Of a stretch of DNA of 40,630 nt, positions 1-20,789 are shown piece by piece. The notes below the pieces were generated by a model, which did not search any database, was not told the origin of the DNA, and saw only the letters and a program-made list of their open reading frames with translations. This DNA comes from Flavobacteriaceae bacterium PS02337. GTDB lineage: Bacteria; Bacteroidota; Bacteroidia; Flavobacteriales; Flavobacteriaceae. The stretch covers positions 1-40,630 of the forward strand of contig JASCOE010000023.1 of NCBI GenBank assembly GCA_029959285.1. Direction: 5' to 3'. Within the stretch, counting starts at the first letter, position 1. The number at the start of each line of letters is the position of its first letter. The position numbers and the translations under genes were made by a program.

Positions 1-57
1 GTAACTTAATCGTACTGCTGATGATTTAAACTCAGCACTGTAAACTCGTTTTTTCAT
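1..57 (-). CDS. IS3-family transposase OrfA, N-terminal fragment (left edge)
   Basis: From the ATG at 57 the minus strand encodes MKKRVYSAEFKSSAVRLSY before the window ends. This resembles the start of the OrfA at 39544, which has the same charged opening, a K-A/S-V-x-L-S-Y pattern and the beginning of a helix-turn-helix. OrfA proteins of this family bind the terminal inverted repeats. Only 19 residues are visible, so the family call rests on the similarity to the neighbouring IS and on the position just inside an IS end. The identical fragment starts at 40573. Confidence 0.6.
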   Translation of the reverse strand, partial: MKKRVYSAEFKSSAVRLSY

Positions 58-125
58 AATTCTAAGATATTTATTTTTATTTAAACAGTCTTAAAATTTA
101 TGTCCCAGTAAATGTAGCAACTCCA
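1..125 (-). mobile_element. IS-B copy 1, left end (partial, IS3-type)
   Basis: These 125 bases are an exact reverse complement of 40505-40629, so the same element begins at both window edges. The element's end is placed at 125 because the identity stops there and, read on the minus strand, the sequence begins TGGAGTTGCTACA, with the TG typical of IS3-family termini. Read leftward it holds about 68 bases of leader and then the first codons of a transposase. The rest lies outside the window. It is inserted in a Crp/Fnr-type gene (126-216). Confidence 0.8.
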
Positions 126-216
126 GAGGATCATTTTCGTAAAATATGATACAGTTTTTGGGTGTTTTTTTTGCAACAGCGCCCCAAGTGAATAGCAAAT
201 CTGTATCAATATCCAT
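126..216 (-). pseudogene. Crp/Fnr-family regulator, N-terminal remnant cut by IS-B
   Basis: Read leftward from the ATG at 216 the frame gives MDIDTDLLFTWGAVAKKTPK followed by NCIIFYENDP. This is the usual opening of Bacteroidetes Crp/Fnr regulators, leading into the cyclic-nucleotide-binding-like beta barrel. At 125 the reading frame runs into IS-B and ends 11 codons later at a TAA (93-91). The barrel, dimer helix and DNA-binding domain are missing. It has none of the N-terminal cysteines of the Fnr-like protein at 2241, so it was probably a different sensor, perhaps of heme/NO type (inference). It was probably inactivated by the insertion. Only 30 residues remain, so the family call is moderate. 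Confidence 0.6.
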
Positions 217-485
217 TTTTTCTAAAGTTATATGTATTTATAAATGATGCGAAATATTTCATCGCTTGAAGACAGCGCCTGCGGTTATTATTGATTTTCA
301 TGAAAGCGGAGGTATATGTTTTAAGCAAAGAAAAGAAATCAGGTATAAAAAAAACATGATAAATATTAGGTTTTGAAAGTTTTGTTGAAGCTAGAATAGG
401 TGTTAAATTAAAGATTTATAAAAAGATATTTTTAATTTAAACTGGTAGCTAATCTTTTGGAAGTCATTGTGTAATCTGAAGTGTT
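217..485. other. Intergenic region upstream of hemN
   Basis: There is no convincing gene here. The stretch holds the promoter side of the interrupted Crp-type gene on the minus strand and AT-rich leader. The only structure I noted is a short palindrome GAAATATTTC at 251-260, inside a longer imperfect one (GATG...CATC). The hemN control region follows at 486. Confidence 0.5.
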
Positions 486-529
486 ATGATATTTATCATA
501 TTACAAAAGCAGTATACTTCGGATATTTG
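486..529 (+). promoter_or_regulatory. Fnr/Crp-type box and -7 element of hemN
   Basis: The 14-base palindrome ATGATATTTATCAT spans 486-499 (centre 492.5), and flanking bases extend it to TATGATA/TATCATA. A GATATTTG at 522-529 matches the Bacteroidetes -7 consensus TAnnTTTG except at the first base. The two centres are 33 bp apart, which places the palindrome near -41.5 from a start site around 534. The same spacing occurs at nirK and narK. This is the expected position for a class II activator. Confidence 0.7.
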
Positions 530-621
530 TAATGCATTAGAATGGTAATAGCTAAAAAGATTCATTTCAATATTAAAAAAAGTTCTATTTCATTTTCTTC
601 CTAATTTCTAAAATTAAAATT

Positions 622-1986
622 ATGTCAAAGTCTTTAATTCAAAAATATAATGTTCCAGGTCCCAGATATACCAGTTATCCAACTGTTCCGTACTGGAATG
701 AAATACTTTTTTCAATAGAGGAATGGAAGAATTCTTTACAAAAATCATTTTTGGAGAGCAATTCACAAAATGGGATCAGCCTATATATTCATTTGCCTTT
801 TTGTGAAAGTTTGTGCACCTTTTGCGGATGCAACAAACGAATTACTAAAAATCATTCAGTAGAAGAAAAATATATCATCGCTGTTTTAAAAGAATGGAGT
901 ATTTACTGTGGACTGTCTTCTGAAAGACCAATCATAAAAGAAATTCATCTGGGAGGTGGAACTCCGACTTTTTTCTCATCAGAAAATTTAGAAAATCTTA
1001 TAAACGGTATTTTTAGGTTAGCTGATAAAGCTGAAAATCATGAGTTCAGTTTTGAAGGCCATCCCAACAATACGACTTATGAGCAGCTTAAAAAATTATA
1101 TAATTTAGGATTTCGCAGAGTAAGTTTTGGCGTTCAGGACTACGCGGAAAAAGTCCAGAAAGCCATTCACAGAATTCAGCCATTTCACAATGTGGCAAAA
1201 GTAACTTTTTGGGCAAAAGAAATTGGTTATACCTCAATAGGACACGATATTATTTTTGGATTGCCTTTTCAAACAATTGAAAACATTGTGGACACCATCG
1301 AAAAAACAAATTCTTTAAAACCAGATCGATTGGCTTTTTACAGCTATGCGCATACGCCCTGGATCAAAGGAAATGGACAACGTGGATTCAATGAGGCAGA
1401 TCTTCCAAAAGATGTAGAAAAAAGAAAATTATATGAGACAGGAAAAAACCTGCTTTCTCAAAACGGATATCACGAAATTGGGATGGATCACTTTGCTTTA
1501 GCTTCGGATAGTTTATATAAGGCTGGTCATACTGGGGAATTGCATCGCAATTTTATGGGATATAGCTCGTCAAAAACCCAGTTAATGATTGGATTGGGAG
1601 TTTCAGCTATCAGTGATAGTTGGTACAGTTTTGCTCAAAATACAAAGAGATTGGAAGAATATTATCAACTATTGGAATCCGACCAACTTCCTGTTGTGAA
1701 AGGGCATATACTTGACAAGGAGGATTTAATTATTCGCAAACATATTCTCAATTTAACCTGTCAATTTGAAACTACGTGGGATGATAAAGCCTTTTATTTT
1801 GACGAATTACCAAGTGTTTTGTCCGATTTAAAGGAAATGGTAAATGATAATCTGGTAACTATTGAAGAAAACAAAATTCAAATCACAGATGCAGGCAGAC
1901 CTTTTGTTCGTAATATTTGTATGGCTTTCGATTTGCATTTGAAAAGAAAATCTCCCGAAACTAATCTTTTTTCAATGACAGTCTAA
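622..1986 (+). CDS. hemN: Oxygen-independent coproporphyrinogen III dehydrogenase (radical SAM)
   Basis: HemN oxidatively decarboxylates coproporphyrinogen III to protoporphyrinogen IX without oxygen, so heme can be made under anaerobic conditions. The 454-residue length is normal for the family. The radical-SAM cluster motif is at C61, C65 and C68, followed by C70, in HLPFCESLCTFCGC, and the SAM-binding GGGTP is at 111-115. The N-terminal PGPRYTSYPT is the HemN signature that separates it from HemW-like proteins. It starts at an ATG about 88 bases downstream of the predicted transcription start and stands alone, just upstream of an Fnr-like regulator. Its Fnr-type box ties it to the nitrite and nitrate reductase genes, which need heme. 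Confidence 0.95.
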   Translation: MSKSLIQKYNVPGPRYTSYPTVPYWNEILFSIEEWKNSLQKSFLESNSQNGISLYIHLPFCESLCTFCGCNKRITKNHSVEEKYIIAVLKEWSIYCGLSSERPIIKEIHLGGGTPTFFSSENLENLINGIFRLADKAENHEFSFEGHPNNTTYEQLKKLYNLGFRRVSFGVQDYAEKVQKAIHRIQPFHNVAKVTFWAKEIGYTSIGHDIIFGLPFQTIENIVDTIEKTNSLKPDRLAFYSYAHTPWIKGNGQRGFNEADLPKDVEKRKLYETGKNLLSQNGYHEIGMDHFALASDSLYKAGHTGELHRNFMGYSSSKTQLMIGLGVSAISDSWYSFAQNTKRLEEYYQLLESDQLPVVKGHILDKEDLIIRKHILNLTCQFETTWDDKAFYFDELPSVLSDLKEMVNDNLVTIEENKIQITDAGRPFVRNICMAFDLHLKRKSPETNLFSMTV

Positions 1987-7145: not shown

Positions 7146-7835
7146 CTATCCTCTAAAATGAATTTTAATTTTCTCTGTACCAATATTTTGGTTTTCCAAT
7201 TCTTTAAAAGAATGCCCAAGTTTTTCTATTGTCGAGGATCCATTAATAAAATGCTGAATGTAATAATTTCCTGAATATCCCAAATTTTCCAGAAAAAACA
7301 CCATTTCCTGAATATCTCTTTTGTTTAATAAATCAGAGTGCACTGTTGTACGAACTTCAAAAGGTACTGTATGATGAAGCAATAAAAGTAATGATTTTGC
7401 AAAGGGAATGAAAAGTTTTGATTGGGTTATCTTTGCAAATTTCGCAGGCATTGCTTTAAAATCAAGTGCTACATAATTAATGAGTTCTTTTTGAATCAGT
7501 TCTTCCAATATGTCCGGCCGTGATCCATTGGTGTCAATTTTGATCAAAAAACCCATTTTTTTGACTTCTTTAATAAACGAAACAGCCTTTTTATGTAACA
7601 GACATTCACCTCCGCTAAAAACTACGGCGTCCAATAGATTAACCCTGCTTTTGAGGAATTGAAGTGCTTTATCAAAAGTAATACGTCCTTTTCCGTATAC
7701 AATTTCTGGATTATAGCAATACAAACACCGCATATTACAGCCTGCAAACCAAAAAATGCAAGCTGATTGGTGCGGATAATCTAATAAAGTAAACGGTGTA
7801 ATACTGTAAATAGGGGCACTAACATTTTGCTTCAT
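7146..7835 (-). CDS. nrdG: Anaerobic ribonucleotide reductase activating protein (radical SAM)
   Basis: NrdG uses SAM and a [4Fe-4S] cluster to place the glycyl radical on NrdD. The cluster motif is CNMRCLYC and the SAM motif SGGE follows. From the ATG at 7835 the protein has 229 residues, starting MKQNVSAPIYS. A GTG at 7862 would add nine residues, but it lies inside the glycyl-radical ORF and the typical NrdG N-terminus (PIYSITPFTLLDYP) comes after the ATG. The start overlaps the end of the 54-residue glycyl-radical ORF by 17 bases, which suggests coupled translation of the radical carrier and its activase. The C-terminal half is longer than in E. coli NrdG, as in the NrdG2 or pyruvate-formate-lyase-activase-like type. 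Confidence 0.9.
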   Translation of the reverse strand: MKQNVSAPIYSITPFTLLDYPHQSACIFWFAGCNMRCLYCYNPEIVYGKGRITFDKALQFLKSRVNLLDAVVFSGGECLLHKKAVSFIKEVKKMGFLIKIDTNGSRPDILEELIQKELINYVALDFKAMPAKFAKITQSKLFIPFAKSLLLLLHHTVPFEVRTTVHSDLLNKRDIQEMVFFLENLGYSGNYYIQHFINGSSTIEKLGHSFKELENQNIGTEKIKIHFRG

Positions 7836-7983
7836 TGAAATGGGTTCGCTGTTTGTGTTCACCTTTTTTTCCGATATTAAAACTTTCTACGGGTCTGTGG
7901 TAGCCCATTACTCTTGTGTACACCAGGCATTTGGTGCGAACTTCTTGATTTTGTTCTAAAATCGCGTTGGTTGTTAGTTTCAT
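7819..7983 (-). CDS. Separate glycyl-radical domain of anaerobic NrdD (54 aa)
   Basis: This short frame lies between nrdD and nrdG. It encodes 54 residues from an ATG at 7983 to a TAG at 7819. Residues 19-49 (CLVYTRVMGYHRPVESFNIG and KKGEHKQRTHF) match the C-terminal tail of single-chain NrdD proteins, where RV-x-GY-x-RPV surrounds the glycyl-radical glycine, here G27. The 701-residue NrdD upstream stops just after its zinc-binding cysteines and lacks this tail. The ORF starts 51 bases after the NrdD stop, with its own ATG and an unrelated N-terminal stretch (MKLTTNAILEQNQEVRT), so it is not a simple frameshift. It would work in trans, much as GrcA does for pyruvate formate-lyase. The identity is strong from the motif; the split arrangement is the unusual part. 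Confidence 0.85.
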   Translation of the reverse strand: MKLTTNAILEQNQEVRTKCLVYTRVMGYHRPVESFNIGKKGEHKQRTHFNEAKC

Positions 7984-8034
7984 ATTTGCTGTTTTTTTAG
8001 TTATGAATTGTGTAAAATTTGCGGTGTGGTTTTT

Positions 8035-10140
8035 TCAAATATCTATAAGCTTTGTTTTTTCTTCAATGATAATTTCATCGCATTTTGGGCAATATTCATG
8101 CTCTCCGTTTAGATAGCCATGAACAGGGCAAACACTAAATACAGGTGTTACTGTGATGTAAGGCAATTTAAAATTAGTAATCACTTTTTTTACAAAATTT
8201 TTGCAAGCTTCAGGTGAGCTTATTCTTTCGCTCATATACAAATGCAAAACGGTTCCTCCTGTGTATTTGCATTGCAATTGGTCCTGAAGCATCAAAGCTT
8301 CAAATGGATCCTGGGTAAAATCTACAGGGATTTGGGAACTATTTGTGTAGTAAATATTTTTTTCTGCTCCCGCCTGAATAATATCGTCAAAACGTTTTTT
8401 ATCCTCTTTGGCAAATCGGTATGTGGTTCCTTCTGCCGGAGTGGCTTCTAAATTATAAAGATTTCCAGTTTCTTCCTGATACTGCTTCATTCTGTCCCGG
8501 ATGTGTTCCAGAATTTCAGAAGCAAGTTTAATACCAGTTTCAGAAGTTATGTCGTCTTCATTATGGGTAAAATTCTGTATCATTTCGTTCATTCCGTTTA
8601 CACCAATAGTTGAAAAGTGATTTCTGAAATGTTGTAAATACCGTTTGGTGTAGGGATACAATCCACGATCGTACATTCCCTGAATAAAAGTTCTTTTTTT
8701 CTCTAAAGTTGATTTGGAAATCAATAAAAGCTTGTCCAATTGTTGAAATAAAGCTGCTTTGTTTCCTTTGAATAAATAACCTAAACGAGCCATATTAATA
8801 GTTACCACGCCAATACTTCCTGTCATTTCAGCGCTTCCAAAAAGTCCGTTTCCACGTTTTAATAGTTCTCGCAAATCGAGTTGTAAACGGCAGCACATAC
8901 TGCGAACAGCATTGGGCTTGTAGGCATTTTCGTTTTCTATTTGATTGCCATTTTCGTCCAAAACATATTGGCTTCCAATGAAATTTTGAAAATAGGAAGA
9001 ACCAATTTTCGCTGTGTTTTCAAAAAGCAGGTTTATATTCTCTCCATCCCAGTCAAATTCCTCGGTAATATTAACCGTTGGAATAGGGAAGGTAAAGGGC
9101 TGCCCATTGGCATCACCTTCTGTCATTACGGTATAATACGCTTTATTGATTAGATTCATTTCTTTTTGAAAATGCTCGTATCGTAAATTAGTAACTTCAG
9201 AAACTCCTCTGCTTTTAGCCCTTGTCAATAGGTCTGTACTATTGTTCTTTTCAAAAATATGACAATCATTTTTAGTCGGAATTTGTGCTTTTAAATCCTC
9301 AGGAACAACCCAGTCTAAAGTGATATTAGTAAAGGGAGATTGTCCCCAGCGTGCGGGAACATTCAGGTTGTATACAAAACTTCGTACCGCTTTTAAAACG
9401 TCATCATAAAGGAGATCGTCTTTGAATACATAAGGAGCCAAATAGGTGTCAAAAGAACTAAAGGCTTGTGCACCCGCCCATTCGCTTTGCAAAATCCCCA
9501 GAAAATTGGCCATTTGTCCCAAAGCTTCCCTAAAATGAGATGGCGGTTTGCTTTCCACCCGGCCTCTGACTCCATTGAAACCTTCATTTAACAATACACG
9601 CAAACTCCAACCCGCACAATAGCCCGTGAGGCAATCCAAATCGTGAATGTGAATATCACCATTGCGGTGTGCATAGCCTTCTTCTTTAGAATACACTTTA
9701 TCCAGCCAATAATTTGCGATAACTTTTCCTGCTACATTGCTAACCAATCCTGCGTTCGAATAAGAGGTGTTGGCGTTGGCGTTGATCCGCCAATCTGTTT
9801 GTTGTATGTATTCTTCAATCGTTTGGGTGCTGTCGACATAAGTTGTATCATCATTCAATCCTTCAAGATGTTCGCGTTGCAGCTTTCTGGTGTGTCGGTA
9901 TAGCATAAAGGAGCGCATGGCATCAAAATGGTTTTTATCGAATAATTTTTTTTCGATTACATCCTGAATGTCTTCAACAGACCATACTTCTTTGTTTTCG
10001 AGTTGTATAGCCACACTTTCAAAAACACTTTCATCAACAGCTATAGAGACACTCTGAAAAGTTTTTTCAATTGCATCTTTGATCTTATAACTTTCAAATG
10101 GCTGATACTTTCCATTTCTTTTGATGACATAATTTTCCAT
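8035..10140 (-). CDS. nrdD: Anaerobic ribonucleoside-triphosphate reductase, large part (class III)
   Basis: This 701-residue protein reduces ribonucleotides to deoxynucleotides without oxygen. Residues about 1-90 are an ATP-cone (MENYVIKRNGKYQPFESYKI), followed by the ten-stranded catalytic barrel, with NVPARWGQSPFTNI and the conserved MCCRLQLDLRELLKRGNGLF region. The C-terminal zinc site reads CPVHGYLNGEHEYCPKC (C671, H674, C684, C687), with a histidine in place of one cysteine. The chain ends 14 residues later, without the glycyl-radical tail, which is encoded separately at 7983-7819. It starts 33 bases after ric, so it probably shares the ric promoter and an anaerobic/NO response. Confidence 0.95.
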   Translation of the reverse strand: MENYVIKRNGKYQPFESYKIKDAIEKTFQSVSIAVDESVFESVAIQLENKEVWSVEDIQDVIEKKLFDKNHFDAMRSFMLYRHTRKLQREHLEGLNDDTTYVDSTQTIEEYIQQTDWRINANANTSYSNAGLVSNVAGKVIANYWLDKVYSKEEGYAHRNGDIHIHDLDCLTGYCAGWSLRVLLNEGFNGVRGRVESKPPSHFREALGQMANFLGILQSEWAGAQAFSSFDTYLAPYVFKDDLLYDDVLKAVRSFVYNLNVPARWGQSPFTNITLDWVVPEDLKAQIPTKNDCHIFEKNNSTDLLTRAKSRGVSEVTNLRYEHFQKEMNLINKAYYTVMTEGDANGQPFTFPIPTVNITEEFDWDGENINLLFENTAKIGSSYFQNFIGSQYVLDENGNQIENENAYKPNAVRSMCCRLQLDLRELLKRGNGLFGSAEMTGSIGVVTINMARLGYLFKGNKAALFQQLDKLLLISKSTLEKKRTFIQGMYDRGLYPYTKRYLQHFRNHFSTIGVNGMNEMIQNFTHNEDDITSETGIKLASEILEHIRDRMKQYQEETGNLYNLEATPAEGTTYRFAKEDKKRFDDIIQAGAEKNIYYTNSSQIPVDFTQDPFEALMLQDQLQCKYTGGTVLHLYMSERISSPEACKNFVKKVITNFKLPYITVTPVFSVCPVHGYLNGEHEYCPKCDEIIIEEKTKLIDI

Positions 10141-10173: not shown

Positions 10174-10902
10174 TTATTGAGCTGTAAAGTCTTTTTCAAG
10201 TTTGGCAGCTTTTGGAAATAAAATATTATTCTCCAAATGAATGTGTTTATGCAAATCCTGCTCAAATTCTTCTAGCATTGCAAACGTAACTTTATAAGTA
10301 TTACAGCCATCGGCTGGCGGTGTATAATTGTTAGTTAATTCTGCTATTTTTCTAAAACGGACACCTTCGGCGTCGTGCTCGTGCATCATCATAGCAATTG
10401 GATTTTGAATTGTTTCAAAATGAGGCAGCTCAATTAATTCATCAGATAGAGTAGCATGAACCATTTTTTTTATAAATGGGAACAAAATCAGCTCTTCTTT
10501 TTTCATATGTTGTGCCAATTCTCCTGCGCAGCCTTTAAAAAGCTCATTTATTAATAATAGTTCAGGATGTTTTGCGCCATGCACTCTGCTGAGCTTATCT
10601 AAAAACTGCAGCAGTATTGGTGTTTTTTCTGATACATATCTGTGATGCTTTTTTTCAATATAATCAGCCAATAAATCAATCGGCCAGGCATTGTAATCAA
10701 TTCCTGAATCGCTTTTTGATGATAGAACTGTTTCAATTTCCTGTAATAAAACATCTGCAGTCACTGCTTTTTTCTGGCAGGCTTCTTCAATGCTTCTGTT
10801 TCCGTTACAGCAAAAATCTATTCCGTATTTTGAGAACAAGGCTGCTGTTCTAAAATCTTTTGCCACGTATTCTCCGATTGTAATTTGTTCTAAAGTTTCC
10901 AT
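10174..10902 (-). CDS. ric: Iron-sulfur cluster repair di-iron protein (RIC/ScdA/YtfE)
   Basis: RIC proteins repair Fe-S clusters damaged by NO and oxidants. The 242-residue protein has both family parts: an N-terminal ScdA domain with GIDFCCNGNRS (C31, C32), and a C-terminal hemerythrin-like di-iron domain with repeated histidine/glutamate pairs (H85/H86, H132 with E136, H174/H176, H218/H222 with E224). It is the first gene of the leftward operon and is divergent from nirK, whose product makes NO. A shared Fnr-type box lies between them. The combination points to a response to self-generated NO. Confidence 0.95.
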   Translation of the reverse strand: METLEQITIGEYVAKDFRTAALFSKYGIDFCCNGNRSIEEACQKKAVTADVLLQEIETVLSSKSDSGIDYNAWPIDLLADYIEKKHHRYVSEKTPILLQFLDKLSRVHGAKHPELLLINELFKGCAGELAQHMKKEELILFPFIKKMVHATLSDELIELPHFETIQNPIAMMMHEHDAEGVRFRKIAELTNNYTPPADGCNTYKVTFAMLEEFEQDLHKHIHLENNILFPKAAKLEKDFTAQ

Positions 10903-11274: not shown

Positions 11275-12759
11275 ATGAAAACCAGTGTTAAATTAAACAG
11301 ACAAATAAGGGGGTTTTTTATAATGTTGCTTGTTTTAGTCGGATTTTTTTCTTGCAAAAGAGGAAGCGATGAAGCAAAAAATTATCAAAATATTGAGGCC
11401 AAAGGGCAGCAAACTGCCGAACTCACGGCGCCTCCGTTTGTTCCGAAAGCAGTAGGAGACCGTGAAGCTACAAAATTAGTGGTCAATATGGAAATTAAGG
11501 AAATTGAAGGAGAAATGGTAGATGGTGTAAAATATACTTATTGGACTTTTGGGGGTTCTGTTCCCGGGAGTTTTATCAGAACCAGAGTGGGTGATGAAGT
11601 AGAATTTCACCTAAAAAACCATCCGGATAACAAAATGCCTCACAATATTGATTTACACGCGGTAACCGGACCAGGAGGAGGAGCAACCTCATCGTTGGTT
11701 GCCCCAGGTCACGAAAAAGTGTTTAGTTTCAAAACCTTAAATCCCGGTTTATACGTGTATCATTGTGCTACAGCACCAGTTGGAATGCATATTGCTAACG
11801 GAATGTATGGGTTGATTTTGGTTGAACCAGAAGGAGGCTTGCCACCAGTTGATAAAGAATATTACATCATGCAAGGTGATTTTTACACCAAGGGCAGTTA
11901 TGGGGAACAAGGTTCTCAACCTTTTGATATGGATAAAGCCATTAAGGAACAAGCTGATTATGTGGTCTTCAATGGGAAAGTTGGAGCTCTCGCCGGAGAT
12001 AAGTCTTTAACGGCCAAAGTTGGTGAAACTGTCCGTATTTATATGGGGAATGGAGGTCCTAATTTGGTGTCATCTTTCCATGTTATTGGAGAAATTTTCG
12101 ACAAAGTGCATATTGAAGGAGGGGATATGATCAACGAAAACGTACAAACTACCTTAATACCTGCAGGTGGTTCGGCCATTGTGGAGTTTAAAGTAGATGT
12201 TCCGGGAACTTTTATACTGGTAGACCACTCGATTTTTAGAGCCTTTAATAAAGGAGCACTTGGAATGCTGAAAGTTGAAGGCGAGGAAAATAAAAAATTG
12301 TATTCTGGAACCATACAAGATGGAATATATTTACCAGAAGGTGGGACAATTCAAGGTATGCCAAAAGGCAAAGCAGTTCCTAAAACTACTGTTGCAAAAA
12401 CTGTTCCTGAACAAATTAAAGCCGGTAAAGAATTATTTGACCGTACCTGTTATGCCTGTCACCAATCTGAAGGGCAAGGTATTCCGAATGCTTTTCCTCC
12501 ATTGGCAAAATCAGATTACCTGAATGCGAATCCAGATAGAGCTATTGGCGCGGTATTGCACGGATTAAGTGGAGAGATCACCGTTAATGGCAAGAAATTC
12601 AATAACGTGATGACCAGTCAGAACCTAACTGACGAGCAAGCTGCTGATGTTCTGACATACATATACAACAGTTGGGGCAATAATAAAACAGTAATAACTC
12701 CGGCAAAAGTAAAAGCTGTTAGAGCCAAACCTGCTCCAAAAGTAGCCCAGGAACATTAG
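11275..12759 (+). CDS. nirK: Copper nitrite reductase fused to a C-terminal cytochrome c (lipoprotein)
   Basis: NirK reduces nitrite to NO. Two cupredoxin domains span about residues 60-345. Type 1 copper ligands are H123, C164, H172 and M177; type 2 ligands are H128, H163 and H318; the catalytic pair is D126 and H269. All are present, in [19 protein letters not shown] and SSFHVIG. A lipoprotein signal ends at C27 (GFFSC), so the enzyme should be membrane-anchored on the periplasmic side. Residues about 378-470 form a class I cytochrome c with CYACH (392-396) and a likely axial M446, which would feed electrons directly to the type 1 copper. At 494 residues it is longer than classic NirK because of this domain. 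It is first in an operon with nirV, a Sco protein and a barrel protein. Confidence 0.96.
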
Positions 12760-12781
12760 AATAAATCAAAAAAAGTAACAG

Positions 12782-13552
12782 ATGGCAGTATTTAAAACAA
12801 TATCAATCCTATTTATATTCTGTGTAAGTTCTCTTTTTGCTCAAGAAGAAAAAATGGCATCCATAAAAGGCGGCAGTTTTGTTCCCCTTTATGGTGCTAC
12901 TTCTGAAAAACCGGTCAAAATACCTTCTTTTACTATTGATGTGTATCCAGTTACCAATATACAATTTCTTGCTTTTATCAAAAAATACCCAGAGTATAGT
13001 CGTTCTAAAATCAAAGGTATTTTTGCAGATAAAAGTTATCTGGCACAATGGACAAGTGATTTCGATTATGGTTTAAAGAATTTAAACAATGCCCCGGTTA
13101 CCAATGTTTCCTGGTTTGCTGCCAAAAAATATTGCGAATGTCAAGGCAAAAGACTGCCAACAATGGACGAATGGGAATATGTAGCCATGGCCGATGAAAA
13201 ACGTATTGATGCCCGTTCTAAAAAAGAATTCAATAAATACATTTTGTCGTGGTATGAGAAGCCAAAAACCTATTTAAACCCTGTAGGTCAAACCTTCAGG
13301 AATTACTGGGGGGTTTATGACATGCACGGTTTGGTGTGGGAATGGACAGGCGATTTCAATAGTATCTTTCTTTCAGGGGAGTCCCGAAAAGATAAAGCTA
13401 CAGATAAGAATCTTTTTTGCGGCAGCGGATCCGTAAATGCCACCGATTTAATGGATTATGCGGCTTTTATGCGCTATGCTTTCAGAAGCAGCCTGAAAGC
13501 AAATTATACCACCAAAAACTTAGGTTTTCGCTGTGCCAAAGATTTAAAATAG
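12782..13552 (+). CDS. nirV: NirV-like formylglycine-generating-enzyme-fold protein
   Basis: A 256-residue secreted protein: the signal peptide runs to SSLFAQ, then a single sulfatase-modifying-factor (FGE) fold domain from about 25 to 255, with MASIKGGSFVPLYG, PVTNVSWFAAKKYCECQGKRLP, EWEYVA and the closing LGFRCA. The paired catalytic cysteines of true formylglycine-generating enzymes are not visible, so it is unlikely to be one. NirV proteins are known next to nirK in other denitrifiers, and a role in nitrite reductase maturation or stability is suspected. It lies 22 bases after nirK. Confidence 0.85.
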   Translation: MAVFKTISILFIFCVSSLFAQEEKMASIKGGSFVPLYGATSEKPVKIPSFTIDVYPVTNIQFLAFIKKYPEYSRSKIKGIFADKSYLAQWTSDFDYGLKNLNNAPVTNVSWFAAKKYCECQGKRLPTMDEWEYVAMADEKRIDARSKKEFNKYILSWYEKPKTYLNPVGQTFRNYWGVYDMHGLVWEWTGDFNSIFLSGESRKDKATDKNLFCGSGSVNATDLMDYAAFMRYAFRSSLKANYTTKNLGFRCAKDLK

Positions 13553-13576
13553 GTTCTAAACTATTTATATAAAAAA

Positions 13577-14164
13577 ATGAAAAAACTGTTCCTGGGATTA
13601 ACATTAGTCCTTTTAGTTTTACAGGGATGTAATACTAATAAAAAATCCGAAGATAAACCGATTTCAGATTTATCCATATACAATCTGCCTTCAAAATGGA
13701 CCAATCAAAATGGGCAAAATCTTGAAATGAAGGATTTAAAAGGCAAAGTGCTCGTTATGGTAATGATTTATACTTCCTGCAAGGCAGCTTGTCCCAGACT
13801 AGTGGCCGATATGCGAAATATAGAATCTCGTTTGTCTGAGAAAATCAAACCCGATGTAAAGTTCCTATTGGTAAGCATAGATCCGGAAGTTGATACTCCG
13901 GCACGATTAAAAGAATTTGCTATTGCTAATAAAATGGATGGGGGACAATGGGAATTTTTGAGATCCACAGAAGAAAATACCCGAGAGTTTGCAGCGGTTT
14001 TGGCAGTCAACTACAAGAAAATTGCTCCTTTAGATTTTTCGCATTCTAACATAATAAGTGTTTTTAATGCCGAAGGGGAATTAACATTTCAGCAAGAAGG
14101 TTTGGGTGTAAATTCTGAAGCAACGATTAAAAAAATTACTGAAGAAGCTGAAAAGATAAAGTAA
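13577..14164 (+). CDS. Sco1/SenC-family copper chaperone lipoprotein
   Basis: A 195-residue lipoprotein (lipidated C18 in VLVLQGC) with a thioredoxin fold. The Sco copper ligands are all present: the CxxxC pair C68 and C72 in TSCKAACP, and H156 in DFSHSN. Sco proteins load copper or reduce cysteines in copper enzymes such as cytochrome oxidase. Its place in the nirK operon, 24 bases after nirV, suggests it metallates the NirK copper sites (inference). Confidence 0.92.
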   Translation: MKKLFLGLTLVLLVLQGCNTNKKSEDKPISDLSIYNLPSKWTNQNGQNLEMKDLKGKVLVMVMIYTSCKAACPRLVADMRNIESRLSEKIKPDVKFLLVSIDPEVDTPARLKEFAIANKMDGGQWEFLRSTEENTREFAAVLAVNYKKIAPLDFSHSNIISVFNAEGELTFQQEGLGVNSEATIKKITEEAEKIK

Positions 14165-14187
14165 ACTTCTTTCTTAAAACTTACAAA

Positions 14188-15465
14188 ATGAAAATCTTGA
14201 AAATTATTGTTATAACACTTTTACCAGTGTTCAGCTGTATTGCTTTTGCTCAGGAACTGGATGCAAATTTACAGATCAGACCTCGTTATGAGTTTAGAAA
14301 TGGCTATAAAGCCCCAATTCCTTATGGAGAAACGGCAGCTCAATTTGTTTCATCCAGAACTCGTTTGAATCTGAACTTCAGGCAAGATCAATTTATTACC
14401 AGACTTACTATACAAAATGTTCGTGTTTGGGGAGATGTGCCCACAAATACCAAATCAGATGTAAACAGGATTCAGTTATATGAAGCCTGGGTGCAATATA
14501 ACTTTAGTGAAAAATGGAGTGCGCGTTTAGGCCGTCAGGTGATTTCGTATGACAATCAACGCATTTTTGGTGAAGTCGATTGGGCACAACAAGCGCAAAG
14601 TCACGATGCTGCGATAACAACTTTTAAAAGTAACAAAAATCATCTGGATGTAGGGATTGCATATAATGCAAATGCTGAAACCGAACTTGCAACACCTTAT
14701 AACGTGCTAAATTACAAATCGATGCAATATGCTTGGTACCATACTGAGTTATTGAAAATAAATATGAGTTTCTTGTTTTTAAATACAGGTTATGAAAATA
14801 AATTAACAGATCCAGTTCCAACACCAACACCCGAATTGAAAGTAGATTACATGCAGACTTTTGGAACGTATTGGAAAACCAAAGGGAAATCCTGGGATGT
14901 AGACTTATGGTTTTATGGGCAAACAGGAAAAAATGCAACTAATACAGTAAATGCTTTTGACGTAGCTCTTAATTTTAATTATGACCTGACCGATAAGTTT
15001 AAAGCTGGTTTTGGATACGAATATCTTTCCGGAAAGAGCCAGGAAAATACTAGTTCAGCAATAAAATCCTTTCATCCTGTTTTTGGAACCAATCATGCCT
15101 TTAATGGATATATGGATTATTTCTATGTCGGAAATTATAAAAACTCGGTTGGTTTAAAGGATGCTTTTTTGAAATTTGCATACAATGTCAACAAATGGCA
15201 ATTTGCGTTATTTCCCCATGTTTTTAATGCTGCGAATACCGTTTTGGATGCTAATGGAAATGAAATAAAAAACTATCTTGGTACGGAAATCGATTTTACA
15301 TTTGGCTACTCAGCACATAAATTTGTGAATGTAACGGGAGGTTATTCCCATATGTTTGCTACCGATACCATGCAAAGATTGAAAGATGGCCACGTTAATC
15401 ACGTTAACAATTGGGCGTGGGTAATGATTAATGTAAATCCTCAGATTTTTTCTCATAAAAAATAA
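14188..15465 (+). CDS. Outer-membrane beta-barrel protein (alginate-export-like)
   Basis: A 425-residue protein with a signal peptide ending at AFAQ, followed by alternating aromatic beta-strand segments throughout, as in 16- to 18-strand barrels. The opening QIRPRYEFRNGYKAP and the motif RLGRQVISYDNQRIFGEVDW resemble the Alg_export family of Bacteroidetes. The last residues do not show a classic terminal phenylalanine. It is the last gene of the nirK operon, 23 bases after the Sco gene, so it may let nitrite or nitrate cross the outer membrane (inference). Substrate unknown. Confidence 0.75.
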   Translation: MKILKIIVITLLPVFSCIAFAQELDANLQIRPRYEFRNGYKAPIPYGETAAQFVSSRTRLNLNFRQDQFITRLTIQNVRVWGDVPTNTKSDVNRIQLYEAWVQYNFSEKWSARLGRQVISYDNQRIFGEVDWAQQAQSHDAAITTFKSNKNHLDVGIAYNANAETELATPYNVLNYKSMQYAWYHTELLKINMSFLFLNTGYENKLTDPVPTPTPELKVDYMQTFGTYWKTKGKSWDVDLWFYGQTGKNATNTVNAFDVALNFNYDLTDKFKAGFGYEYLSGKSQENTSSAIKSFHPVFGTNHAFNGYMDYFYVGNYKNSVGLKDAFLKFAYNVNKWQFALFPHVFNAANTVLDANGNEIKNYLGTEIDFTFGYSAHKFVNVTGGYSHMFATDTMQRLKDGHVNHVNNWAWVMINVNPQIFSHKK

Positions 15466-15640
15466 TTTTTAATTCACTTGAAAGCTGTCTAGAATACTTA
15501 ATTCTAAAAAGTTTTGCATAACCCCAATGGCTGATTGGATTAGTATTTGTTTTTTTTCATTTTGTGAAATACTGGGTTTTATAGCTTATTTTTATTACTT
15601 TCATCTTTATTTTCTGGTTATTTTGAGTTGAAAACAATAA

Positions 15641-15684
15641 ATGATTTATATCATGTTTTAGGATTACGGACTATTTTATCTTTG
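15641..15684 (+). promoter_or_regulatory. Fnr/Crp-type box and -7 element of narK
   Basis: ATGATTTATATCAT (15641-15654, centre 15647.5) is followed by a perfect -7 element TATCTTTG (15677-15684). Centre-to-centre distance is 33 bp. The start site would be near 15689, leaving a leader of about 19 bases before the narK ATG. Confidence 0.78.
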
Positions 15685-15707
15685 TTTAAGAATTAATTAA
15701 AGTAAGT

Positions 15708-17189
15708 ATGAGCAATTTATCACAATCACACAGAATATTATTTTTAAACACACTTGCTTTTGCAGTCTGTTTTGCCTGTTGGACTTTAAATGGTGTTTTA
15801 GTCACATTTTTAGTGGATCAGGAAATTTTTGATTGGAATGTAGTTCAAATCGGGTGGTTACTGGGAATTCCAATACTTACAGGCTCGCTCATGCGGTTAC
15901 CAATGGGGATTTTAACAGATAAATATGGAGGTCGCGTGGTCTACTCTGCTTTGCTGATTTTGGCATCTATTCCATTGTTTTTGCTTCCTTTTGCTGCTAA
16001 TTTTTGGATGTTTGCATTATTGAGCTTTATGTTCGGAATGGTAGGAACAAGTTTTGCTGTTGGTGTGGCCTATACTTCACTATGGTATCCTAAAGAATGG
16101 CAAGGACGTGCCTTAGGAATTTTCGGAATGGGTACTGCAGGAGCTTCTATTACTCCCTTTATAGCACCCAGTATGCTAAAATACTTTTCAGAGTCAGATC
16201 CAGTAAATGGGTGGAAATATTTGCCTGTTATTTACGGTGTAGTATTGTTGACGATGGGTATTGTTTTTATTCTTTTTTCGAAAACTAAAAAAATAGAAGC
16301 AAAAGCAAAAACAGTTAAAGAACTTTTACAACCGCTTAAAGAGGTGCGTGTTTGGCGCTTTGGAACCTATTACTTTTTGCTGTTTGGTTCGTTTGTGTCA
16401 TTTTCCCAATGGTTGTTGCCTAATTTTATGAATGTTTATCATACAACTTTAATTTTAGGAGGGCTGTTTACTACTTGTTTTAGTTTACCAGCTGGTATTA
16501 TTCGTGCTTTTGGAGGATTTTTATCCGATAAATTTGGAGCAAGAAAAGTGATGTATTGGGTATTGAGTACTTCGGTAGTGTTGAGTTTTTTACTTTTGTT
16601 TCCAAAAATGAATATTACTACTTCCGGTAGCGGCTTGATGGCAGCAAAAGCAGGAACGGTTACACAAGTTTCACCATCTAAAATAGTTATTGGAGAAAAA
16701 GAATATTTAGTTACTTCAAAAGATGTTAATGCAGAGCACAATCCGTTTTTTCCGTCTAAAAAAACATGGCAGGAAGTTGTTGTAGCAGAAAATCAAAAAG
16801 TTCAGAAAAAAGAATTAATTGCAGACGGAATCACGCAAATTCATTTTGAAGCGAATATGTGGGTTTATCTTGTCTTGGTTATTTTAATTGGGACTTGTTG
16901 GGGAATTGGTTCGGCAGCAGTTTACAAACACATTCCTGAATATTTTCCAAATCAGGTAGGGGTCATAGGAGGAATGGTTGGAATGATTGGCGGTTTGGGA
17001 GGATTTATTGGTCCAATAGTTTTTGGATACCTGCTTGCTTTTACTGGTTTTTGGACCAGTTCATGGCTGTTTATCTTTGTCTTATCCATTATTTGTTTGA
17101 TTTGGATGCACCGTGTAATTGTAAAAGTGACTAAAGAAAAACTACCTGAATTTGCTCAGGATATGGATAGAAAAGATGTTATAGAATAG
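15708..17189 (+). CDS. narK: Nitrate/nitrite transporter, major facilitator superfamily
   Basis: A 493-residue transporter with 12 predicted helices and both nitrate signatures: substrate arginines in SLMRLPMG (R63) and GIIRAFGG (R266), and the glycine-rich stretch GTSFAVGVAYTSLWYPKEW plus the later GGMVGMIGGLGGFIGP. Between the two helices around residues 300 and 385 lies an 80-residue soluble, beta-rich insert (GTVTQVSPSKIVIGEKEYLV and onward) not found in compact NarK proteins. It starts the nitrate module, about 260 bases before the cytochrome b gene, and has its own Fnr-type promoter. Nitrate uptake for the cytoplasmic reductase encoded next to it is the likely role; nitrite export is also possible. 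Confidence 0.93.
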   Translation: MSNLSQSHRILFLNTLAFAVCFACWTLNGVLVTFLVDQEIFDWNVVQIGWLLGIPILTGSLMRLPMGILTDKYGGRVVYSALLILASIPLFLLPFAANFWMFALLSFMFGMVGTSFAVGVAYTSLWYPKEWQGRALGIFGMGTAGASITPFIAPSMLKYFSESDPVNGWKYLPVIYGVVLLTMGIVFILFSKTKKIEAKAKTVKELLQPLKEVRVWRFGTYYFLLFGSFVSFSQWLLPNFMNVYHTTLILGGLFTTCFSLPAGIIRAFGGFLSDKFGARKVMYWVLSTSVVLSFLLLFPKMNITTSGSGLMAAKAGTVTQVSPSKIVIGEKEYLVTSKDVNAEHNPFFPSKKTWQEVVVAENQKVQKKELIADGITQIHFEANMWVYLVLVILIGTCWGIGSAAVYKHIPEYFPNQVGVIGGMVGMIGGLGGFIGPIVFGYLLAFTGFWTSSWLFIFVLSIICLIWMHRVIVKVTKEKLPEFAQDMDRKDVIE

Positions 17190-17344
17190 CGAATGAATAT
17201 AAAATATTATTAATTTTTATTATAAATTAGAACGAAATTAATCAATTGATCTTGCAATCGATTAGCCTCTTGCTTTTTTTTTGTAAATTAACCTTCTTTA
17301 GTAGTACAACATTTTTAAAAGCTGTTTTTATAAATAGTCAGAAA

Positions 17345-17360
17345 ATGAAACCTATTTCAT
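17345..17360. promoter_or_regulatory. Palindrome upstream of the nitrate reductase module
   Basis: ATGAAACCTATTTCAT has perfect 6-base arms around CCTA and lies about 90 bases before the cytochrome b gene. Its half-sites are spaced two bases wider than the ATGAY-N4-ATCAT boxes, so it is probably for another protein or a weak variant. No perfect TAnnTTTG element lies at the usual distance; the closest is TAATTTG at 17378-17384. The rest of the narK-cytochrome b gap (17190-17448) shows nothing else. Confidence 0.35.
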
Positions 17361-17448
17361 GTATTTGGTTCGGATTGTAATTTGTAAATTAACAGTTATT
17401 CTTTAATAATTAGGGTTTAAAAGTGACTTGAAGTAATGATAATTTAAA

Positions 17449-18498
17449 ATGAAAAATAGAAACTACAATATAAAGGCTTTACTAATTGCCGCTTCCATGT
17501 CCGTGCTAATGATTATATTAGTATTTTATGGATCCAGAAAACTGCAAAATTTTGATGCGGCATTAATTACGTATTTATTTGGGACAGTATTTGCTTTTTT
17601 TGGTATTGTATACCGTTATTCTGTTTGGCTGCAAAGGCCGCCAACGTGGATTTATTTCAAAAGAGGAGTAAGTTACTTGTTTACGGGAAAAGTGTTTTCT
17701 CACTTTTGGTTTGCTTCAAAAGAAACAATTGAAAATATTGCTTTTCAGAAATTTATTTATCCCCGGGGCAAATATCGGTGGATGGCGCATTTTATGATTG
17801 CCATAGGCTGTACTTCCGCTTTTTTAATTACGATTCCATTGACTTTTGGATGGATTCATTTTACTATGGCCCCCGATTCAATATCGGTTTACGAAGCACA
17901 TTTTTTCGGTTTCAAGGTCATGGAATTTAAATTGGGTTCCATTATGGCCTTCCTAACCTTTCATGCCCTGAACTGGTCTTCTTACTTGGTTATTTTCGGT
18001 TCGTTATACTACTTAAGAAGACGTTTGACCAATCCTGGTTTAATTGCTACTCAAACTTTTGAAGGCGATTTATTACCCCTAATTTTATTAATTGCTATTT
18101 CCGCTACAGGATTGGGGCTAACCTATTCCTATCAGTTTATGAAAGGTTTTGCATTTGATTTCCTAGCTGTTCTGCATGCAGTAACGGTAATTATGTTTTT
18201 AATCTGGATTCCGTTTGGAAAGTTTTTTCATATCATTCAGCGTCCGGCACAAATTGGGGCACATATATATAAAAAGCAGGGGATGAAAATGGGAATGGCA
18301 GTTTGTGAGCACACCGGAGAGGAATTCGCTACCAATTTGCATATAAAAGATCTTAAAACAGTAACTAAGGAATTAGGTTTCAATTTTGACAGACCGGATG
18401 GAACATCGCATTTAGATTTAAGCCCTGAAGGTAAAAGATCCCGTTTGGCACAAGCCCACTTAAAAGCACGACTGGAAGGCGGAAATTTATTTGGCTAA
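17449..18498 (+). CDS. Membrane cytochrome b subunit of the nitrate reductase module
   Basis: A 349-residue protein with about six membrane helices in the first 270 residues and a soluble, charged C-terminal tail. Histidines in helices fit heme b ligation: H113 region (WMAHFMIAIG), FHALNWSSY, VLHAVTVIMF and KFFHIIQRP. The last pair resembles the NarI/HdrC type H...P-x-x-K-x-x-H arrangement. It should oxidise quinol in the membrane and pass electrons to the Fe-S and molybdenum subunits. No Fe-S cysteine motif is present in the tail. The next gene starts 74 bases later. The call as cytochrome b is inferred from these features and the context. Confidence 0.72.
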   Translation: MKNRNYNIKALLIAASMSVLMIILVFYGSRKLQNFDAALITYLFGTVFAFFGIVYRYSVWLQRPPTWIYFKRGVSYLFTGKVFSHFWFASKETIENIAFQKFIYPRGKYRWMAHFMIAIGCTSAFLITIPLTFGWIHFTMAPDSISVYEAHFFGFKVMEFKLGSIMAFLTFHALNWSSYLVIFGSLYYLRRRLTNPGLIATQTFEGDLLPLILLIAISATGLGLTYSYQFMKGFAFDFLAVLHAVTVIMFLIWIPFGKFFHIIQRPAQIGAHIYKKQGMKMGMAVCEHTGEEFATNLHIKDLKTVTKELGFNFDRPDGTSHLDLSPEGKRSRLAQAHLKARLEGGNLFG

Positions 18499-18572
18499 TT
18501 TTTTTTAGTTGAATTGAAAATTAAAAACAACACTGGTGATTTTTTTATCGCATCGGTTAAAAAATATAAAAC

Positions 18573-20789
18573 ATGGCAAAATTACCTGTTTCGGAACAAA
18601 ACATTATCACGCAATTTGGACCTCATAAAAACTACACACCGAAAGATGGTTATGAGGGCAGGGATGAGCCAGATGAATTGGTAAAAACACATTGTTGTTT
18701 TTGTGGAATGCAGTGTGGTATTCAATTGTCGGTTAAAGACAACAAAGTAGTAGGTTTTGAACCCTGGATGGAATTTCCGTTCAACGAAGGGCGATTGTGC
18801 CCTAAAGGGGTCCAGCGCTATTTACAGAACAATCATCCGGACCGTCTCTTGTCCCCGCTAAAAAGAGTAGAAGGGCAAGGATTTGTACCAACGTCCTGGG
18901 ATGATGCGATGGGTAAAACAGTTTCTGAAATTAAAAGGATTCAGGCGCAATATGGAAACGATGCCTTCTCAGTCCTTTCGGGTGTTTCGCTAACCAATGA
19001 AAAAAGTTATTTGATGGGTAAGTTCGCCCGTGTCGCTCTAAAAACAAAAAATTTAGATTATAATGGACGCTTGTGTATGGTAAGTGCAGGAGCAGGAAAT
19101 AAAAAAGCATTTGGTCTGGACCGGGGCTCTAATAACTATTCGGATCTGGAATATGCGGAAGTAATTATTGTGGCTGGTGCCAATGTTAGTGAAACTTTCC
19201 CAACATTAACCCACTGGATTTGGAAAGCCAGAGACCGTGGTGCAAAATTGATAGTTATTGACCCAAGAATGATTCCATTAGCCAGAACAGCCGATCTTCA
19301 TTTGGATGTCCGCCCGGGAACAGATTCGGCTTTGTATGGTGCAATGCTGAAATATTTGGTGGATCATGACATGCTGGATCACGATTTTATTGCCAACCAT
19401 ACCTCAGGTTTTCAGAAGACTATAGATTCCGTAAAAGAGTATACCCTGGAATGGGCAGAGCAAGTTACAGGGATTAAAAAAGAAAAAATTCAACAGGCAG
19501 CCGAATTATGGGGCAGAGCCAAAACAAGCTTTTTACTTCATGCCCGTGGTATTGAGCATCATTCTAAAGGCGTAGATAATGTGTTGGGATGCATTAATTT
19601 GGTACTCGCAACAGGAAGAATTGGTAAGCCATATTGCGGTTATGCCACTATTACCGGACAGGGAAATGGGCAAGGCGGTAGAGAGCACGGTCATAAATGC
19701 GATCAGCTGCCAGGAAATAGGGATATTGAAAATCCGGAACATCGTAAATATATTTCAGAAGTTTGGGGTATTAATGAGAAAGATATGCCCGGAAAAGGGT
19801 TGTCGGCTTATGAAATAATCGAAGCCATTCATCGTGGGGAGATTAAAGGGCTATTATCGATTTGTTTTAATCCGCTAGTTTCCCTGCCTAACAGCAATTA
19901 TGTTCGGGAGGCTTTAGAAAAGTTAGAATTTTATGTTTGTATTGACTTTTTCTTAAACGAAACGGCCCGTCATGCCGATATTGTTTTGGCAGGATCATTA
20001 CAGGAGGAAGAAGAAGGTACAACCACTTCAGCCGAAGGGCGTGTTATCCGAATCCGTCAGGCAGTTACTCCTCCGCGAGATGCCAGAACCGATACTTCGA
20101 TTATTTTGGAATTAGCCAAACGATTAGGGGTGGAGGATAAATTTACGTATGATAGCAGCGAAGCCGTTTTTAACGAATTGCGGGTAGCCTCAAAAGGAGG
20201 AACTGCTGATTATTATGGAATTACCTACCAAAGAATTGAAGACGAAATGGGTGTTTTTTGGCCTTGTCCTGAAATAGGACATCCGGGAACACCGCGTTTA
20301 TGGGAAGATAAAAAATTTAAAACCTCAGATGAAAGGGCTCATTTTAATCCGGCACCGTACAAAGTTCCAGGTGAGGTGCCAGATGCCGATTATCCAATAA
20401 TTTTGACGACAGGACGTGTGGTTTCTCAATATTTGAGTGGTACACAAACACGAAGAATTGGAAAATTGGTTGATCAGTATCCGGAGCCTTTATTGGAAAT
20501 TCATCCAAATTTAGCCCAACAATACGGCATCAAACAAAGGGAATTAATAAAAGTTACTACCCGGCGTGGTGAAGGCATTTTTCCTGCAAACATTGTAGAA
20601 ACGATTCGCGAAGACACGGTTTTTATACCGTACCACTGGTCTGGAAAAAAATCAGCAAACCAATTAACTCCCGGAACATTAGATCCTATTTCTAAAATTC
20701 CGGAATTCAAAGTTTGTGCCTGTCATCTGGAACCTTTGCGTGAAATAGCACCACCTTCGAGCGAATCTATGGCTTACGCTAGTGTTTAA
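18573..20789 (+). CDS. Molybdopterin oxidoreductase, nitrate reductase catalytic subunit (NasC/NarB/NapA-like)
   Basis: A 738-residue member of the DMSO-reductase superfamily. The [4Fe-4S] ligands are C41, C44, C48 and C76 (CCFCGMQC ... GRLCPKG). The molybdenum ligand is probably C168 in [10 protein letters not shown], as in NapA/NasC-type nitrate reductases. Cofactor-binding motifs include [14 protein letters not shown] and [12 protein letters not shown]. The C-terminal MoCo domain begins near 610. There is no Tat signal, so it is cytoplasmic. It could be assimilatory, but the Fnr-type promoter of the module, NarK, and the membrane cytochrome b and Fe-S partners indicate respiration. Nitrate as substrate is inferred from family and NarK. 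No MoCo synthesis genes are nearby. Confidence 0.88.

Follow-up and report, generated by a model that had tools for sequence, protein, structure and literature searches.

Class III ribonucleotide reductase (RNR) is the source of deoxynucleoside triphosphates (dNTPs) in many bacteria that grow anaerobically, and oxygen destroys it at its radical glycine. For another glycyl-radical enzyme, pyruvate formate-lyase (PFL), a protein called GrcA or YfiD serves as a spare part, and PFL itself keeps its own radical domain. A phage-borne PFL spare part, Y06I of phage T4, is described in PMC8683613, which gives spare parts as validated for PFL only and asks about other glycyl-radical enzymes. Here we describe a split nrdD in a stretch of 40,630 nucleotides (nt) from Flavobacteriaceae bacterium PS02337 (contig JASCOE010000023.1; the whole stretch is called the window below). 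Its radical glycine sits on a 54-residue open reading frame (ORF) rather than on the body chain, where an ordinary NrdD has it, and because of this we class the system as a variant form of class III RNR with two components. In the openly licensed PMC literature we came across no account of a radical subunit separate from NrdD, subscription papers lying outside the search.

A class III ribonucleotide reductase in two genes

As far as sequence can tell, two separately started, conserved and co-occurring genes tile one class III RNR, and we consider it very probable that they encode a two-component enzyme with a trans-acting glycyl-radical subunit. We prefer this reading because the two products tile the NRDD profile, the split is constant among the relatives, the small gene has a very low ratio of nonsynonymous to synonymous differences (pN/pS), the activase gene nrdG is always close by, and the two genes occur together. 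We call the larger product the body and the smaller one the tail, or tip. The parts in the window are as follows.

8035..10140, minus strand: nrdD body, 701 amino acids, with ATP-cone and class III RNR catalytic barrel, without the glycyl-radical loop
8890..8901, minus strand: finger-loop motif MCCR, Met414-Arg417, with candidate thiyl-radical cysteines, of the Met plus double Cys type (sequence, alignment numbering)
8083..8133, minus strand: zinc-site residues on the body, Cys670, His673, Cys683 and Cys686, CPVHGYLNGEHEYCPKC (sequence, alignment numbering)
7984..8034, minus strand: gap of 51 nt from the nrdD stop to the tail ATG
7819..7983, minus strand: tail ORF, the putative trans glycyl-radical subunit, 54 amino acids, RTKCLVYTRVMGYHRPV (Pfam NRDD)
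7903..7905, minus strand: codon of Gly27, the predicted radical glycine (sequence)
7146..7835, minus strand: nrdG2 activase, a radical S-adenosylmethionine protein (TIGR02495, E 1e-56, 191.4 bits against a cut-off of 131.15)
10174..10902, minus strand: RIC/YtfE-type protein for the repair of iron-sulfur clusters, next to nrdD on its upstream side (TIGR03652, 240 bits against a cut-off of 205)

An earlier note on this DNA had claimed that nrdD ends after its zinc-site residues and that the radical motif RV-x-GY-x-RPV lies in an ORF of its own, with its own ATG and overlapping nrdG. Both claims hold. The body stop is a TGA at 8035-8037, 15 residues past Cys686, the final cysteine of the zinc motif. 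The tail starts at an ATG (7981-7983), carries RVMGYHRPV, and overlaps nrdG by 17 nt if nrdG starts at the ATG at 7833-7835, or by 44 nt if it starts at the GTG at 7862.

The body matches Pfam NRDD over profile positions 2-528 of 562 (E 4e-164, 547.8 bits, cut-off 26.2), and the tail alone matches positions 532-562 (E 7e-7, 28.6 bits, gathering score 26.2); on these scores the tail match is not chance. With the NCBIfam model PRK08270, the body covers positions 4-649 of 684 at 1079 bits and the tail 648-683, but the tail's 23 bits stand against a whole-protein cut-off of 548. The ATP-cone of the body is found by its Pfam model at E 1.1e-17 (64.8 bits, cut-off 25.8). Class II RNR models match the body at the ATP-cone region alone (residues 3-97), far under cut-off. 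Gly27 is the predicted counterpart of Gly580 of T4 NrdD and Gly621 of T. maritima NrdD, an assignment extrapolated from the range ends of structure alignments.

Conservation of the split

The same genome holds a second full set (G000:C8:44000-56000, locus L289), with a body 80% identical to that of the window and again a separate tail. Its neighbours NadA, RIC, NrdG and a CopD-like protein match their window counterparts at 52 to 64% identity. The window tail is identical to the tails of four Flavobacterium loci, and among 40 relatives a tail is present in 10 genomes (own included), in open frames of 55-79 amino acids.

We scanned 84,980 species genomes for the tail and kept the best 80 of at least 585 tail relatives. 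These are mostly from Flavobacterium; some carry the labels of other Bacteroidota bins, and one that of a Klebsiella bin. Arrangement counts use 77 of the 80 loci, since the upstream sequence of L028, L053 and L080 is too short. Body and tail are separate, body first and then tail, in 77/77, which strongly supports the proposal of the earlier note that the arrangement in trans is stable. Their relative frames fall in all three classes (26, 40 and 11 loci), the spacing runs from -41 to +287 nt with the ORFs overlapping in 25 of the 77, and the body ends in TAA 59 times, TGA 11 times and TAG seven times. NrdG lies within 600 nt of the tail in 80/80 loci, and a RIC protein is present in 54 of 65 full-length relative loci. 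The tail has a pN/pS of 0.04 (33 codons, 1317 pairs, relatives), and its third codon position is invariant in 1 of 33 columns while the second is invariant in 29; by these measures it is under purifying selection.

In two of the loci, L022 (287 nt) and L035 (267 nt), the long gap between nrdD and tip holds repetitive-looking, partly self-complementary sequence, perhaps a mobile intergenic repeat.

Distribution in Bacteroidia, the phylum and plasmids

Body and tail also occur together across a wider sample. The body lineage (at least 76% identity) is found in 11 of 395 Bacteroidia genomes, at 12 loci with body frames of 705-722 amino acids, and a strong tail is found in the same 11 genomes, at 12 loci, all split, with tail frames of 56-85 amino acids. 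The earlier note had suggested looking for the same split in related genomes, where it is now seen both here and in the 77 loci above, and had taken close relatives with a fused NrdD as what would speak against it; the 395 genomes yielded no fused form of this lineage. Five Bacteroidia genomes carry an NrdD of 25-34% identity, and the weak tail matches L104-L109 (E 4e-4 to 0.008) are without the RVxGYxRP motif. A family search gave weak matches in 12 of 397 genomes, in open frames of 622-634 amino acids that belong to another, fused NrdD lineage. Among 296 genomes sampled across the phylum, the fused form occurs in eight, from three families outside Bacteroidia, in frames of 714-805 amino acids.

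Plasmid records with a tail match numbered 28, of which 20 were listed and ten opened; a body search added six further records, besides Sulfuricystis, which appears in both searches. The split form is present in 11 opened records (Sulfuricurvum, Cereibacter, C. metallidurans, C. necator, Bradyrhizobium, Azospira, Thiothrix, Paracoccus, Shinella, Aquabacterium and Sulfuricystis), which span Campylobacterota and alpha-, beta- and gammaproteobacteria. Three opened records are fused (Actinomyces, Acidiphilium, Geoalkalibacter), and two are distant lineages. The body ORF of Thiothrix, the sole gammaproteobacterium with a body in the set, lies in two frames. Of the 11 split records, seven have the small ORF annotated as nrdD in RefSeq, or eight counting Thiothrix, whose body is broken. 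Among the neighbouring genes are those for napA and NnrS in Sulfuricurvum, for nitric-oxide reductase in C. necator and for NosL in Shinella.

Two of these plasmids touch on published work. The abstract of a 1999 C. necator paper (Siedow et al.) reportedly gives NrdD as 76.2 kDa, and 76.2 kDa is also what we calculate for the H16 body when the tail is left off. The H16 NrdDG is split in the plasmid record, where the tail gene is H16_RS32675; it is stated in PMC2864759 to be essential for complete denitrification. In the presence of cobalamin, the class II RNR of H16 can stand in for it. For C. metallidurans, the genome paper lists NrdDG as Rmet_5137 plus Rmet_5139, and the record has a tail ORF between body and nrdG, which we infer to be Rmet_5138.

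A tip also occurs as an orphan. On plasmid pAt1 of Allochromatium tepidum (L206, 2460-2645) there is a 61-residue tip, named nrdD in RefSeq, and no NrdD body was found in that stretch, where the neighbours are a DUF3268 zinc-finger protein and a DUF4942 protein.

We built a tree of the bodies from the 40 rows that remained once near-copies and six rows from distant lineages were removed; L068, L090 and L132 were left out as too short or broken. The root was placed by choice on seven fused rows, and there are long-branch warnings for L204, L171, L149 and L118. The split rows plus two fused ones make up the side facing the seven, with a branch support of 100/100, and the tree requires three changes between split and fused states. 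This may be read as one split with two re-fusions or as repeated splitting. If the root is right, the split would be old, present in several phyla and, at least in some cases, reversible.

Stand-alone tips in virus records

Of two scans of virus records, one yielded 50 loci and the other 80, the best of 85 relatives; together they cover 93 distinct records. L185 is without a tail by the tail models, so we count 92. Near-copies are common, with 62 distinct 30-residue cores in the 130 loci, by a counting pattern that itself demands GY. Two loci, L155 and L278, match solely the tail model of this analysis, and L278 is a damaged copy.

A whole-record search with PF13597 found an NrdD body in four of the 92 records (G1073, G1095, G1134 and G1150), with one additional weak match, below cut-off, in G1070. 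In the other 88 tip-bearing records no NrdD body was found, many of these records being fragments whose completeness is not stated. Phage-type genes lie nearby in six of the nine loci whose neighbours were scanned (terminase; DNA polymerase; integrase and CHAP protein; amidase and exonuclease; tail fibre J; Mu F), and in none of L144, L153 and L158. A tblastn search of 50,697 phage records returned four weak matches for the tail query and three for a phage-tip query. With matches to named phages so few and weak, the stand-alone tips rest on metagenomic virus contigs and on ANMV-1. In PHROGs the tip is found solely within phrog_4132, a family of unknown function.

That phages carry the tip alone suggests that it is a replaceable part. 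One possibility, to which we give a little less than even weight, is that tips are exchangeable parts traded between genomes, so that hosts would swap oxygen-cut tips while phages and plasmids would carry their own so that host dNTP synthesis goes on or starts again.

Several virus loci differ from the plain stand-alone tip. The ANMV-1 virus of uncultured archaea (L135, 2680-3114, AJP62049.1) encodes a 144-residue protein that matches NRDD over positions 519-562 alone; cysteine pairs precede the NRDD part, and there is no other NRDD match in the record. The stand-alone tips of virus contigs L173/L174, L178 and L181 are broken by TGA at glycine positions, and so, to judge from its cut-off frame, is that of L175. 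Translation table 25, in which TGA is Gly, restores the motif in L174, L178 and L181, which points to phages of SR1/Gracilibacteria-type hosts. The phage-type record G1134 (80.8 kb, L257) has its own split body and tip, with 45 nt from the stop codon to the tip frame. In the phage record G1150 (L285), body and tip are about 3 kb apart, and the body match comes in two pieces of one open frame, with perhaps an insert between them.

Proposed mechanism

In the mechanism that we propose for the two-component enzyme, the large protein retains the ATP-cone, the zinc motif and the barrel, which bears the MCCR finger loop. The 54-residue protein would dock in the barrel at the place of the C-terminus of a fused NrdD. 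NrdG2 would then act in trans on the docked tail, placing the radical on Gly27, from where it would move to a finger-loop cysteine, and the two-part enzyme would carry out catalysis. MCCR is of the double-cysteine type with methionine, for which PMC9669993 describes components for either formate or thioredoxin as the reductant. When dATP inhibits the NrdD of P. copri, the entire glycyl-radical domain turns mobile (PMC11226230), so that it is not far from there to a tail on a chain of its own.

If oxygen cleaves the radical glycine, the 54-residue piece alone would be lost and a fresh tail could take over. Replacement of the tail after oxygen damage is plausible, and we regard it as about evenly balanced. 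It would suit facultative bacteria, and nrdD lies here beside iron-sulfur repair and denitrification genes. A downstream cluster (window 11275-20786) holds SCO1, a major facilitator superfamily transporter and a molybdopterin oxidoreductase. The cluster also encodes what we take, from its sequence alone, to be a NirK-like (copper nitrite reductase-like) oxidase-fold protein with a haem-c-type motif, and it looks like one for nitrate or nitrite use.

The motif CxxH..CxxC is on the body in 109/109 distinct split pairs. It goes together with a cysteine no more than six residues ahead of the tail's YTR motif in 108 of the 109 split pairs and in nine of 11 fused ones. This cysteine is absent in L118 (fused, with CxxC..CxxC), and in L149 (split) and L204 (fused) despite their CxxH. 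The pattern is suggestive of a zinc site that crosses the two subunits.

We also modelled body and tail as one read-through chain, and the tail was placed in the barrel. Residues 125..753 align with 26..587 of T4 NrdD at 2.3 Å, and 84..760 with 4..635 of T. maritima NrdD at 3.3 Å.

Some points weigh against the two-component enzyme as we have drawn it. The confidence of the model is moderate (mean pLDDT 76.5, with the glycine block at 68 and linker 711-720 at 50), and it was built from a single chain, with fused homologues among the rows, by AlphaFold, which saw NrdD structures. The cut falls within the glycyl-radical domain, between its zinc half and its glycine half. Fused homologues lie inside the clade (Acidiphilium, Actinomyces), so the split was not kept everywhere. 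Finally, the motive of replacing damaged parts is our own inference, though a plausible one.

Alternative explanations

The strongest alternative is a true split without any repair role, in which the tail binds once and stays, and the division is neutral or serves expression levels as may be the case for NrdJa/NrdJb. Stable two-chain class II RNRs exist (PMC9669993), the tail adjoins nrdD in the genomes examined, and no surplus tails were seen in the sampled genomes. Set against this, the cut detaches exactly the part that oxygen can cleave, a RIC repair gene stands alongside in most loci, and virus records and one plasmid hold a tail without a body, which is sensible only if a loose tail is useful. 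We rate this alternative as a serious one that falls somewhat short of an even chance.

The phage tips could instead be inhibitors or decoys, tying up NrdG or obstructing the host NrdD. They come without an NrdD body and mostly without NrdG nearby, and a small docking protein could compete, but the radical motif is kept in the listed phage tips and an inhibitor would not need the glycine. We think this unlikely.

It is very improbable that recoding, by TGA read-through or a ribosomal frameshift, yields a full-length NrdD here and that the second ORF is no separate protein. Read-through is formally possible in the window, where nrdD and the tail share a frame and the TGA is the sole in-frame stop before the tail. 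A single in-frame stop is also found in five of the 26 same-frame relatives, and a frameshift would require overlaps like those in 25 of the 77 loci. The other 21 same-frame loci, however, have two to eight in-frame stops, every tail in the loci listed has its own start codon, and the relatives show all three frames, gaps of up to 287 nt and all three stop codons. As a general mode, recoding is refuted by these frames, gaps and stops.

A recent mutation, assembly error or gene decay in this genome, for which the in-frame TGA and nothing further speaks, is refuted by the second copy, by the same arrangement in all 77 further loci and by the purifying selection on the tail, and we give it practically no weight.

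Significance

With a two-part enzyme, the 54-residue radical piece can be made, labelled, activated and swapped alone, which opens docking, NrdG-dependent activation and oxygen damage to separate tests. The tips provide candidate answers, in bacteria, plasmids and phages, to the question about other glycyl-radical enzymes put in PMC8683613. If the traded-tip reading is true, a spare-part system would for the first time be known for a glycyl-radical enzyme beyond PFL, and PHROG family 4132 would gain a function. There is also a consequence for annotation: where nrdD is treated as a single gene, as in C. metallidurans, an apparently needed one is overlooked.

Comparison with known systems

Compared with the class III NrdD proteins of T4, T. 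maritima, P. copri and S. thermophilus, the system has in common the ATP-cone, the barrel, the MCCR finger loop, the zinc motif, the radical-glycine loop and the NrdG partner. The known structures hold the glycine on the same chain, whereas here it is on a second protein.

The earlier note had likened the tail to GrcA. GrcA/YfiD, T4 Y06I and the tail are all small stand-alone proteins with a glycyl-radical loop, and the likeness stands in function only. The tail belongs to a different family (a Pfam scan to E 1 gave NRDD alone), and GrcA repairs an initially complete enzyme, whereas the bacterial split NrdD has no tip of its own, the tail being the only one found in the bacteria examined. The comparison with GrcA would fit the body-less phage and plasmid tips better.

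In the split class II RNR NrdJa/NrdJb, the RNR chain is likewise divided over two genes with the C-terminal part separate. That enzyme is of class II and uses cobalamin, and as PMC9669993 describes it the separate chain contains a zinc finger and cysteines and carries no radical. The nrdD of some phages (Aeromonas phiAS4, Lactococcus 949, Clostridium c-st) is also in pieces, owing to introns, inteins or unexplained breaks in single phages according to PMC3653736. In the system described here, unlike in those phages, the cut is conserved and lies at the radical tip.

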